From positions 713,189-777,188 of the forward strand of contig NZ_BFCB01000001.1 of NCBI RefSeq assembly GCF_003569045.1: 64,000 nucleotides of DNA, in the 5' to 3' direction. Below are positions 59,586 through 62,558 of this stretch, one piece after another. Source of the stretch: Aggregatilinea lenta (GTDB lineage: Bacteria; Chloroflexota; Anaerolineae; Aggregatilineales; Aggregatilineaceae). A program made the position numbers and the translations under genes. Every line of letters begins with the position of its first letter. Position 1 is the stretch's first letter. The notes beneath the pieces are model-generated. The model saw nothing but the letters and a program-made list of their open reading frames with translations. It was not told where the DNA came from and did no database searches.

Positions 59586-59858
59586 GGCGGATGAGTGCGA
59601 CGCGTTACCTTACGCATTTCTGACCGCGTTCACAAAATCCGGGTGGAACAGGCCCGCCCCTACACGGGCACGCTCAACGCCGTTTTGCTCCCCCCTCCAA
59701 CACCGATGTACAGACCGATTCGAGAAGGGCCGGGGGTGAGGTCTCTACGATGCCGGGCCTCAGTCGTTCAGCCGCATCTGCTTTCTACACGATCGCGCTC
59801 GCCGTTTTTTTGCCTTTGTTTGTGCTAACCGCTAACGGCTACCCGCTGATCGCTGCCC

Positions 59859-60824
59859 TCAATACACGTACTGCTCTTCCAGTTCTTCGCGCAGCCGCAG
59901 GTAACTGTCGAAGCGCGCCTCGGTGATCTCGCCGCGGTCGACGGCAGCGATCACGGCGCAGCCCGGCTCGTGCGTGTGGGTGCAGTCTTGGAATCGGCAC
60001 TGGGACACGTATGGCGCGATCTCGATGAAATAGCCGTCCAGCTCGTCCGGCTCCACGTCCCACGGCGCGATGGCACGGATGCCGGGCGTGTCGGCCAGGT
60101 AGCCGCCCGCCGAGAGCGGAATCAGCTCGCTGTAGCGCGTGGTGTGGCGGCCTTTGGTCGTCGCGCGGCTGACCGCGTTCACCCGGCGGCCCAGGTCCGG
60201 CTCGATGGCGTTCAGCAGGCTGGTTTTACCCACACCGGACGACCCGGTGAACACGGAGATCTTGCCTTCGAGCACGCCACGCAGCGCCGCGACACCTTCC
60301 CCGGTGTAGGCGCTGACGGTGAGCACCGAGTAGCCGATCTGCACGTACGGCGCGAAGATCGCCTCGATCTCGGCGCGATCGTCGCCCAGCAGATCGATCT
60401 TGTTGACGCAGATGCGGATTTCCGGGATGGACGCTTTTTCCGCTGCGACCAGGAAGCGGTCGAGCATGCGCACGTGAGGGGATGGCTCTGCGGCGGCGAA
60501 CACGAAGACCGCCTGATCGGGGTTGGCGATGATCACCTGCTCGCGCTCCGCCGAGGTGCCCACCGCCGACGACGGGGCCACGCGTGAGAGCACGCGCTCG
60601 CGCTCGTCGACGGCCAGGATCGCGCCCGTGCCGTCGGATTGGACTTCAAGCGTCACCCGGTCCCCGATGGCGACGAGGTCGGTGTCGCTGTACGCTTCCT
60701 TGAGCTTGCCCCGAAGCTGGCACACCACCGTGCCCTGAGGCGTATCGACGGTAAAAAAGCCACTTTGTGTTCGGATTACCAAGCCGTGCTGCTGTTCTGC
60801 CAATGCCGGTTCCTCGCTCTGCAT
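59859..60824 (-). CDS. rsgA: Ribosome small subunit-dependent GTPase A
   Basis: A 321-residue circularly permuted GTPase that matures the 30S subunit. After an OB-fold (VVCQLRGKLKEAYSDTDLVA) the order of motifs is G4 CVNKIDLL, then G1 TGSSGVGKTSLLNAI, G2 RATTKGRHTTR and G3 LADTPGIRA. The C-terminal zinc site is in CRFQDCTHTHEPGCAV. The ATG at 60824 is chosen; the frame extends to 60908 but the first 28 residues lie over a terminator hairpin. A leader ORF and that terminator precede the gene. Confidence 0.95.
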   Translation of the reverse strand: MQSEEPALAEQQHGLVIRTQSGFFTVDTPQGTVVCQLRGKLKEAYSDTDLVAIGDRVTLEVQSDGTGAILAVDERERVLSRVAPSSAVGTSAEREQVIIANPDQAVFVFAAAEPSPHVRMLDRFLVAAEKASIPEIRICVNKIDLLGDDRAEIEAIFAPYVQIGYSVLTVSAYTGEGVAALRGVLEGKISVFTGSSGVGKTSLLNAIEPDLGRRVNAVSRATTKGRHTTRYSELIPLSAGGYLADTPGIRAIAPWDVEPDELDGYFIEIAPYVSQCRFQDCTHTHEPGCAVIAAVDRGEITEARFDSYLRLREELEEQYVY

Positions 60825-60864
60825 GGTGCACGATTGACGGGATGGATCTATTTGGGAAACCAGG

Positions 60865-60894
60865 GAAATAAAAACGCCACGTGTCTCCGTGGCG
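60865..60894 (-). terminator. Terminator in the rsgA leader
   Basis: On the minus strand CGCCACG / CGTGGCG (60888-60894 and 60875-60881) forms a 7-bp hairpin with a 6-base loop, followed by TTTTTATTTCC. It lies 40-70 bases upstream of the rsgA start and about 35 bases after the leader ORF, so it would cut off transcription before rsgA. Confidence 0.75.
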
Positions 60895-60929
60895 CAGGAA
60901 CCCAACATCTCTCAGGTGACGGTCTATCG

Positions 60930-60995
60930 TCAGCCCGTGAGCCTCCTGGCAACGGATAAGAGACACAGATGAGTCAACACACGCTCAGTTTTCAT
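60930..60995 (-). CDS. Leader ORF upstream of rsgA (21 codons)
   Basis: An ORF of 21 codons begins at the ATG at 60995 with AAGGAG seven bases upstream and ends at TGA 60930-60932. The peptide reads MKTERVLTHLCLLSVARRLT plus Gly. It contains tandem AGG codons near the end, rare in most high-GC genomes. Its 3' half overlaps possible pairings: CAGG/CCTG and TGACG/CGTCA within 60906-60962. Position between a probable promoter region and a terminator suggests a translation-linked attenuator for rsgA. Whether the peptide is made is inferred from the good ribosome site. Confidence 0.55.
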   Translation of the reverse strand: MKTERVLTHLCLLSVARRLTG

Positions 60996-61240
60996 CTCTG
61001 TGCTCCTTTCCTGATCAAGACGCGAAATAACACGATCTGGCTTCCGCCAGCCAACCCTCAGCATAGCACGAGGCGAGGGTCAAAGTCAACGGGCGCGCCG
61101 AGCCAGGCTGTCAACGCGGCCCGTGCGCCCGGTTTTTGCCGGCTGGCTCCTGACAAACCCGACAGATCGAGACAGATTCCCGCCGGTGCAGCTAGAGGCT
61201 GTTATAAACTTTTGGCCGAACCGGCGTGCAGAAAGAACAA

Positions 61241-61309
61241 CCTCACCCCCACTTGCTGATGCTCGTTTCCCCCTCTCCAATCCGATTGGAGAGGGGGTAG
61301 GGGGTGAGG
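61241..61309. repeat. Nested palindromic repeat (CCTCACCCC family)
   Basis: Outer arms CCTCACCCC (61241-61249) and GGGGTGAGG (61301-61309) enclose an inner perfect 14-bp stem CCCCCTCTCCAATC / GATTGGAGAGGGGG (61269-61282, 61284-61297). This is the most complete copy of the family in the window. The rest of the gap 60996-61365 outside the rsgA leader shows no gene. Confidence 0.85.
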
Positions 61310-61365
61310 TGCGCTTGACACAGCGCTATTTTGGCGGGTAACGGTGTGAAAGTGCATAACACGCT

Positions 61366-62247
61366 CTAGGTGGTTTGAGCGGGCAGACGGTGATGGCGGT
61401 AAGGGTCCCAGGCCCGAATGAACGCGAGGCTGAGCGCTGATAGGAGAAACAGGGTGTTCAGCACGAGTAGGACGTAAAGGTCGAGGGCGCTGCGCCCGGC
61501 CAGGTACAGCACAACCGTGTATAGTACGGGCACGATCCCCTCAAGCACCGCCGCAGCCGCAATACTCTTCGCCGCTAATCTGCTGGAGGCGAGCAGGACC
61601 CACGCTCCCAGAAAGACCAACCCGGCGCTGCTGAGCAGGATGCCCGCATCCCTGAGCAGAAACCCCACGCCCTCGACAAGACCGGACGCGTCCAGCAGAG
61701 TCAGAGCCGAGGTCGAGCTGTCTAGGCCGAGGTCTAGAATCAGGGTGCCAATCAAATTCACCACAAGTCCGCCCAAGATAACTTCGACGGGCCTGCTGGC
61801 GGTTTCGTTGTTGAGCCGCCACACGATCAGCCGCCCAATCATAAACACGAGGTAGAAGGTAAGCAGCTGCGTTAGCGTGTGGTCGACGGCGTAAAAAATC
61901 CGGCTCGGAGCCGAGCCTTCCGACCAATCCGGCCTCAGAACCTGCTGGGGGAGATCGAAAGTCTCCAACAGCAGCAGCACACACGCGAGCGCCGCCGCCA
62001 GGTAGTGACGCCGGTCGTGATGCACATCCTTGAAGCCACGCGCCACCGCTTGCGGATCGCCCAATTCGGCCAACGCGCGCCGACGTGCTACTTCGGGGGG
62101 CACGCCCTGCCGGAGGAGATCGGCTGCCGTGTCTTCGAAATGGGCGGTCAATTCCGCTCGAATAGAGGCTGCCCACCGGGATGGGACGCCGCGAGTCGCT
62201 TGGTCGAGCCACCGGTCCAGGTCTGTATGGGGGAGAGAGCCAGTCAC
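61366..62247 (-). CDS. Membrane protein with N-terminal HAAS/permease-prefix domain
   Basis: A 293-residue protein starting at the GTG at 62247 (GGAGGT five bases upstream). Residues 10-75 match the HAAS-type helical domain found beside PadR regulators (LTAHFEDTAADLLRQGVPPE, ARRRALAELGDPQAVARGF). The rest holds about six helices (YLAAALACVLLLLETFDL, LLTFYLVFMIGRLIVWRL, VLYLAGRSALDLYVLLVLN). The start overlaps the PadR stop codon by 4 bases (GTGA), so the two are coupled. Such pairs often control envelope stress or export, but the role here is unknown. Confidence 0.82.
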   Translation of the reverse strand: MTGSLPHTDLDRWLDQATRGVPSRWAASIRAELTAHFEDTAADLLRQGVPPEVARRRALAELGDPQAVARGFKDVHHDRRHYLAAALACVLLLLETFDLPQQVLRPDWSEGSAPSRIFYAVDHTLTQLLTFYLVFMIGRLIVWRLNNETASRPVEVILGGLVVNLIGTLILDLGLDSSTSALTLLDASGLVEGVGFLLRDAGILLSSAGLVFLGAWVLLASSRLAAKSIAAAAVLEGIVPVLYTVVLYLAGRSALDLYVLLVLNTLFLLSALSLAFIRAWDPYRHHRLPAQTT

Positions 62248-62558
62248 GAGGCACCTCCTAACAGCAGGTTGACGGCCTGCGAATAACGCTTCCATTCGTC
62301 GGTTTGGCGGGCGAGTTCATGCTGTCCAGCCTCAGTCAAACGGTAGTAGCGGCGCAGCCGCCCGCCGACCGTTTCTTCAAATGCTTCGATCAGCCCACGC
62401 CGCTCCAGATCGTGCAGAATGGGATAAAGCGTGCCCTCCGCGACACCCAGCACGCCTTCCGAACGCTGTTTGATGTCCTTGAGGATCGTGTAGCCGTGCC
62501 TGGGGCCGGTCGAGAGCACGTGAAGGATCAGAAGCGGGAGATTGCCCTTGATGTTCAT
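62244..62558 (-). CDS. PadR family transcriptional regulator
   Basis: A 104-residue winged-helix repressor starting at ATG 62558 (MNIKGNLPLLILHVLSTGPR) with GAGG nine bases upstream. The motifs are HGYTILKDIKQRSEGVLGVA, EGTLYPILHDLERRGLIEAF and RYYRLTEAGQHELARQTDEW, typical of short PadR proteins. It probably represses its own operon with the following HAAS-domain membrane protein. The promoter (62598-62626) overlaps an imperfect inverted repeat. Confidence 0.92.
   Translation of the reverse strand: MNIKGNLPLLILHVLSTGPRHGYTILKDIKQRSEGVLGVAEGTLYPILHDLERRGLIEAFEETVGGRLRRYYRLTEAGQHELARQTDEWKRYSQAVNLLLGGAS

Follow-up and report, generated by a model that had tools for sequence, protein, structure and literature searches.

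The leader of rsgA in Aggregatilinea lenta is very probably a translation-dependent transcription attenuator, as judged from sequence comparison and RNA folding models of the window (the whole 64,000-nt stretch of DNA analyzed here) and of related loci. In the mechanism we propose, RNA polymerase would make a leader with a tiny open reading frame (ORF), in which segment 2, contained in the last codons, and segment 3 could together form an antiterminator, and the alternative pairing of segment 3 with segment 4 would form an intrinsic terminator. A ribosome reaching the stop codon would cover segment 2, so that the terminator forms and rsgA is switched off; one held at or just past the start codon would cover segment 1 and leave segment 2 free, so that the antiterminator can form and transcription continues into rsgA. 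On a leader free of ribosomes, segment 1, which includes the Shine-Dalgarno sequence (SD) and start of the ORF, could pair with segment 2, with a modelled outcome that depends on the species. The switch likely exists and, we infer, works in the cell, although how strong it is in the window species is uncertain. The segment scheme is that of the trp-type attenuators of amino-acid operons, which have the pairings 1:2, 2:3 and 3:4 and a leader ORF lying over segments 1 and 2; in contrast to these, the leader peptides studied here contain no run of codons for a regulated amino acid (by eye), and the downstream gene is not biosynthetic. RsgA is a GTPase of late 30S maturation, and whereas the leader-ORF design is known, rsgA is an unusual gene for it. 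To our knowledge, the control of the amounts of ribosome assembly factors in bacteria is little understood; if our reading is correct, the leader, located directly before the gene of a 30S maturation GTPase, would let ribosome performance feed back on assembly capacity, and it suggests a portable sensor.

The gene itself is identified by its match to TIGR00157 (232 bits against a cut-off of 100), and a single copy was found in the window genome. Comparison with the relatives by eye suggests that it starts at the TTG at 60803, preceded by the SD GAGGAA, rather than at the ATG at 60824. The original prediction, made from the window alone, had placed upstream of rsgA a 21-codon ORF with an SD, and this ORF stands (Table 1). 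The terminator that it put ahead of the gene is present as well, although the spacing is about 63 nt from the T run to the TTG at 60803 rather than about 40 nt to an ATG. Two of the predicted pairings hold up, CAGG with CCTG (60948-60945 with 60898-60895) as the core of the antiterminator and TGACG with CGTCA (60932-60928 with 60921-60917) as a hairpin on the stop codon, whereas TCTC (60963-60960), thought to pair with a downstream GAGA, pairs in the folding model with the SD region of the ORF itself. The unit also begins farther upstream than had been assumed, with the promoter-like site listed in Table 1, the sole such site detected by a consensus scan of 59800-62300. The transcript start, near 61053, was assumed from the -10 element, which places the SD about 40 nt downstream.

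Table 1. Features of the rsgA leader and gene in the window, in order of transcription
Feature	Position	Strand	Basis
Promoter-like site, TTGACT-18-TATGCT with TG before the -10	61060..61089	-	Consensus scan; similar TTGACT/TTGACC..TATGCT-like sites upstream of the relatives' leaders by eye
Shine-Dalgarno sequence of the leader ORF, AGGAAAGGAG, belonging to segment 1	61003..61012	-	Search for SD-led ORFs
Leader ORF, 21 codons, peptide MKTERVLTHLCLLSVARRLTG, ATG 60995, stop TGA 60932-60930	60930..60995	-	ORF list; stop position relative to segment 2 kept in ORF-bearing leaders
Segment 1, SD and start region, predicted to pair with 60978-60954 (mid-ORF and first part of segment 2)	60988..61011	-	Pair probabilities 0.45-0.99 in the nascent leader; no-ribosome minus start-ribosome test
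Segment 2, 5' strand of the antiterminator, within the last codons of the leader ORF	60944..60956	-	Covariation over 8 leaders; models R1 and R2
SD-like AGGAGG inside the ORF, separated from its stop codon by 9 nt (by 8 nt in the relatives with this element)	60942..60947	-	By eye
Predicted hairpin, TGACG with CGTCA, spanning the stop codon of the leader	60917..60932	-	Pair probabilities 0.98-1.0; sequence not conserved
Segment 3, which supplies the 3' strand of the antiterminator and overlaps the 5' terminator arm	60886..60899	-	Alignment, covariation and folding
Predicted intrinsic terminator, 8-pair stem 60895-60874, then TTTTTATT	60866..60895	-	Terminator scan; pairing in 98.2% of cells across the 8 aligned leaders
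rsgA, small-subunit assembly GTPase, TTG start common to the relatives	59859..60803	-	TIGR00157; start by eye from the relatives

Taken by itself, the window sequence is mildly unusual, and the strong evidence comes from the relatives. The scanned 2.5 kb contains four terminator-like sites, compared with a shuffle mean of 1.5; the 188-nt leader folds with a z of -2.55, equalled by 1 of 200 shuffles, and an SD-led ORF ending at the same place arises in 82 of 2000 shuffles. In the folding model, the antiterminator pairs of the nascent window leader have probabilities of 0.41 to 0.58 before the second arm of the terminator is made. A single-sequence duplex test gave a mixed outcome, with 7 of 15 leaders, the window not among them (69/300), doing better than 95% of their shuffles, and is therefore not our main argument.

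Conservation was assessed in alignment A1 (eight leaders from eight genera), for which the positions of the terminator and antiterminator had been chosen by eye before the statistical tests. In the antiterminator, the end of the ORF (e.g., CTTATCCG..GCCAGGAG) is paired with a CTCCTGCGC.ACGGATAAG-like sequence, and the variants covary (CTTATCCG/CGGATAAG, CTCATCCG/CGGATGAG and CTTTGCCC/GGGCAAAG). Over the eight leaders, 85.2% of its cells are paired versus 40-48% in slid structures, a control that favours a structure drawn from the same sequences. Six of the 16 pairs are altered on both sides (3.3 in shuffles, with 19 of 500 reaching the observed number), and the covariation score of 0.277 versus 0.146 in shuffles is matched by none of 500. 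The terminator is nearly invariably paired (Table 1), with changes on both sides in 2 of 7 pairs, not above shuffles (67/500). Both helices use segment 3 and are thus mutually exclusive. These observations bear on whether the leader might be an independent small gene or sRNA with its own terminator, rsgA having a promoter of its own. Its SD, ORF and terminator would indeed be self-sufficient; however, the consensus scan of the window found no promoter-like site between the terminator and rsgA, the antiterminator strand covaries with the terminator arm, and strong covariance-model matches occur only at rsgA in the genomes searched, so that we regard such an arrangement as very improbable.

The ORF was sought in 14 leaders (that of G014 was omitted as near-identical to G002) as an SD-led frame of at least 10 codons ending beside segment 2. 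An ATG- or GTG-started ORF of this kind, ending at the antiterminator, is present in nine of them, including the window, compared with 34 to 97 per 2000 shuffles of each leader; L054 and L110 have a TTG-started ORF only, with the stop 9 nt past segment 2. Among the nine, the distance from segment 2 to the downstream stop is 9 nt in seven leaders, the window (10 nt) and L078 (2 nt) being the exceptions, and in all 11 ORF-bearing leaders the stop codon is UGA. Because the window ORF reads segment 2 in a different frame from most close relatives, with an extra base that puts its UGA at 10 nt, what is kept appears to be the position of the stop and not the peptide. In 9 of the 11 leaders (L056 and L078 lack it), a GGAGG, which also forms part of the antiterminator pairing, lies 8 nt ahead of the UGA (9 nt in the window), where it may keep a terminating ribosome on top of segment 2.

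Three of the 14 leaders (L045, L047 and L050) have no such ORF and retain the competing stems, as would be expected if a protein, such as RsgA or a ribosomal protein, or a small molecule bound the leader and set the antiterminator, the ORF being secondary. We consider this quite improbable, given that the stop position is kept in the ORF-bearing leaders, that the interval between segments 2 and 3 has little in common among the aligned leaders beyond the UGA, and that the window and 31 related loci have no match at the gathering score in Rfam 15, bar a tRNA in L052. Weaker, sub-threshold matches were treated as chance, and a known Rfam family was rejected as an explanation.

The effect of translation was modelled in nine leaders by forcing a 30-nt ribosome footprint to remain unpaired and computing the fraction of molecules with the terminator, with 200 control sets in which the stretch from start+15 to the terminator was shuffled; this is an equilibrium calculation that ignores folding during transcription. 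For the nine leaders as a set, the model favours the terminator with the footprint at the stop codon and the antiterminator with the footprint at the start codon: the stop minus start difference averages 0.565, versus 0.022 +/- 0.079 in the controls, none of the 200 of which is as high. The difference is large in L049 (0.98), L048 (0.89), L056 (0.87), L078 (0.87) and L055 (0.83), smaller in L053 (0.48), and slight or nil in the window (0.09), L046 (0.06) and L052 (0.00). The modelled switch of the window is thus weak at equilibrium (0.87 versus 0.78), with 9 of 200 shuffles giving as large a difference. Taken individually, six of the nine leaders have 10 or fewer such shuffles among 200 (window 9, L048 1, L049 0, L055 3, L056 0 and L078 0); L046, L052 and L053 do not. 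Without a ribosome, the model gives the terminator in five leaders (window, L049, L048, L052 and L056) and not in the other four. The no-ribosome minus start difference averages 0.29 over the nine leaders, versus 0.018 +/- 0.065 (0/200), and this result supports the pairing of segment 1 with segment 2 over the SD. When the modelled ribosome is moved along the ORF, the structure flips at codons 3 to 11 in six of the nine leaders (L049, L048, L055, L056, L078 and L053), whereas the window and L052 remain closed and L046 is mostly open. The original prediction of transcription attenuation tied to translation thus gains support from a covarying antiterminator, a conserved terminator, a stop position kept in ORF-bearing leaders and, in the folding model, a switch that depends on the position of the ribosome.

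What the ribosome would sense is less clear. Outside the segment-2 codons, the leader peptides of different genera have no motif in common and no run of a single codon (by eye). At least one cysteine occurs in all eight ATG-started leader peptides of different genera, which are otherwise dissimilar, and none in that of the GTG-started L053; we cannot explain this recurrence beyond the presence of TGY codons in or near the pairing region. Because the peptide and codons are unconserved outside the pairing region, the simplest signal would be the general speed of initiation and early elongation. We tentatively favour, as something that could well be the case, a response to general trouble in starting translation (poor or scarce 30S subunits, or drugs that hold the ribosome at the start), answered by more of a 30S maturation factor, which would fit the role of RsgA in late 30S maturation. 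A more specific version, which we find somewhat doubtful, has the leader gauging 30S quality in a feedback loop: immature 30S subunits would bind the strong, hairpin-bound SD and leave the start codon slowly, so that the antiterminator stays open and RsgA rises, whereas well-made ribosomes would reach the UGA, be held there by the internal AGGAGG and turn the gene off. A partial precedent for the start-codon state modelled here is the toiL upstream ORF (uORF) before topAI-yjhQ of E. coli, which, in the available part of its description, responds to many translation stresses, with tetracycline stalling ribosomes at its start codon; unlike the rsgA leader with its intrinsic terminator, toiL works through Rho-dependent termination and the ribosome-binding site that lies downstream of it (PMC12121999).

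A drug-specific signal is possible and constitutes the main alternative. In its broader form, this alternative makes the leader ORF a sensor of stalls that depend on particular codons or on the nascent peptide, tuned to one antibiotic class or aminoacyl-tRNA, like the leaders of erm, hflXr and amino-acid operons. The layout is the same as that of rli80, the leader of HflXr (lmo0762) in Listeria, described in the accessible text as a transcription attenuator with a 14-codon ORF (PMC6310831); both combine a short ORF and alternative terminator and antiterminator with a gene for a ribosome-associated GTPase. However, the HflXr ORF encodes an RLR motif and its gene is linked to lincomycin and erythromycin resistance, whereas the RLR arrest motif is absent from the leader peptides studied here (by eye) and the gene is that of an assembly factor. 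In Streptomyces, according to the portion of the report available to us, wblC is under uORF-mediated transcription attenuation, and WblC activates the RsgA paralogue SCO6149, a member of its regulon induced by translation-targeting antibiotics (PMC7157823). There, as here, a uORF transcription attenuator and translation stress are tied to RsgA supply, but the Streptomyces route is indirect, through a transcription factor, whereas in the window genome the attenuator would act on the sole rsgA copy found. The recurrent cysteine, absent from the L053 peptide, would suit a specific sensor too; the want of a motif common to the genera outside segment 2 or of a run of one codon, and the different frame in which the window ORF reads segment 2 argue against such a sensor, which we therefore deem unlikely. 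Another close case is obgE of Pseudomonas aeruginosa, also a ribosome-linked GTPase gene answering a ribosome drug: under azithromycin, it shows less premature 3' end formation, with a 3' end at its start codon, and the available part of that paper describes no leader-ORF switch (PMC8297930). vmlR also counts among the closest systems (PMC9226507).

The original prediction knew of no attenuator described for rsgA, and we found none either: no open-licence PMC paper was found to report rsgA with attenuation and a leader peptide. Those mentioning rsgA together with transcription attenuation describe no attenuator on the gene in the portions available, and those combining rsgA, leader, terminator and ribosome concern, by title, rRNA leaders and a Pseudomonas sRNA. 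The main text of an E. coli 3'-end map mentions neither rsgA nor yjeQ (PMC7815308).

Across the genomes searched, the attenuator is confined to some members of a single order. The gene itself was detected in 54 of 61 genomes in a set made up of the window genome and relatives, in 14 of 18 from the same family, and in 146 of 154 from the whole order. A terminator-like stem with an upstream strand able to pair with its 5' arm is seen by eye in 13 of the 14 available same-family rsgA leaders. The five leaders of genus g6, in which the T runs are weak, and that of G003 differ in the segment sequences and keep the layout; in G006, rsgA closely follows another gene and a leader of this kind is absent. 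Beyond the family, the same terminator/antiterminator layout was recognized by eye in one genome in each of two other families of the same Chloroflexota order (L056 of G153, family f7, and L078 of G051, family f3), and G032, from the genus of G051, has an apparent coding gene directly upstream of rsgA. In a survey of 91 primary rsgA leaders, drawn from the 146 genomes with rsgA, an SD-led upstream ORF was present in 8/14 leaders of f1, 0/44 of f2, 1/8 of f3, 0/4 of f4, 0/1 of f5, 0/2 of f6, 2/9 of f7 (one of the two, L148, looks unrelated) and 0/9 of f8. Given these counts, such an ORF is not a general property of rsgA genes. Transfer of the whole gene from f1 is unsupported, the RsgA tree placing G153 with f7 and G051 with f3; the leader may instead have been lost many times or have moved on its own.

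Covariance-model searches, which together with the alignment showed that the leader features are conserved across related genomes, as the original prediction had proposed to check, gave a similar picture. With E below 1e-15, model R1 recovered the rsgA leader in 9 of the 154 order genomes, E-values of both models being rough by the search tool's own statement; the nine hits are not independent, because the model was made from eight of these leaders, and that of G014, the remaining one, is near-identical to one of them (G002). Weaker matches in G003, G005, G015 and G016 also lie at rsgA, and other weak hits in the order lie elsewhere. Those away from rsgA were dismissed by eye as coding sequence or ordinary terminators (L143 resembles an L10 leader), and the strongest weak match in G153 (25 bits, L135) sits between two ORFs. 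Under stricter filters, which in the class search missed G005, found in the order search, 396 class and 400 phylum genomes yielded nothing outside the window genome above 30.2 bits, and tblastn found no rsgA at eight loci fetched from the weak hits. Model R2, built only from six leaders of f1, the family of the window, detected 8 of 24 loci (L056, L078, L045, L047, L050, L053, L054 and L110) at the rsgA leader with E of 0.004 or less. Of the remaining 16, L013 gave a weak match upstream of rsgA (E 0.005) and L036 a match at E 2.9; nothing was found up to E 10 in the other 14 of the 24. In an independent test on the whole genomes G153 and G051, the top R2 match is the rsgA leader (E 3.3e-5 and 6.4e-4, respectively), the runner-up in G153 having E 0.003.

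Other rsgA genes of the order have upstream regions of different kinds. In G056 (L024) and G152 (L144), a short SD-led ORF ends at or near the start of the primary rsgA, with no terminator by eye, which possibly points to coupling rather than attenuation. That the leader ORF of the window likewise serves mainly to feed rsgA translation, through coupling or reinitiation, seems to us extremely improbable, as the attenuator-type ORFs of the window and relatives end before the terminator, about 85 to 135 nt from the rsgA start.

In genus g19, the primary rsgA genes of five genomes (L015, L016, L017, L023 and L026) share a similar leader of about 200 nt, in which neither a short ORF with a strong SD (survey) nor an obvious terminator (by eye) was found. 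The leaders of second rsgA copies in the same genus (L204, L205, L207, L208 and L210), without a match in Rfam, have the SD AAGGAGG and a uORF of 21 codons (MRIVNVPLVIIPGVPSDSAVF or a close variant of it), as well as what may be a terminator. A different common leader lies upstream of the second rsgA copies in G006, G001 and G038 (L036, L037 and L209): it has a short uORF starting from GGTTGGATGTTA, followed by GCATRAG, which can pair with CTYATGC within the subsequent terminator-like stem, with one covarying position in the three sequences. Its sequence suggests an independent attenuator controlling a paralogue of rsgA, and a search for this leader matched 7 of 154 genomes at the threshold, three of them closely.
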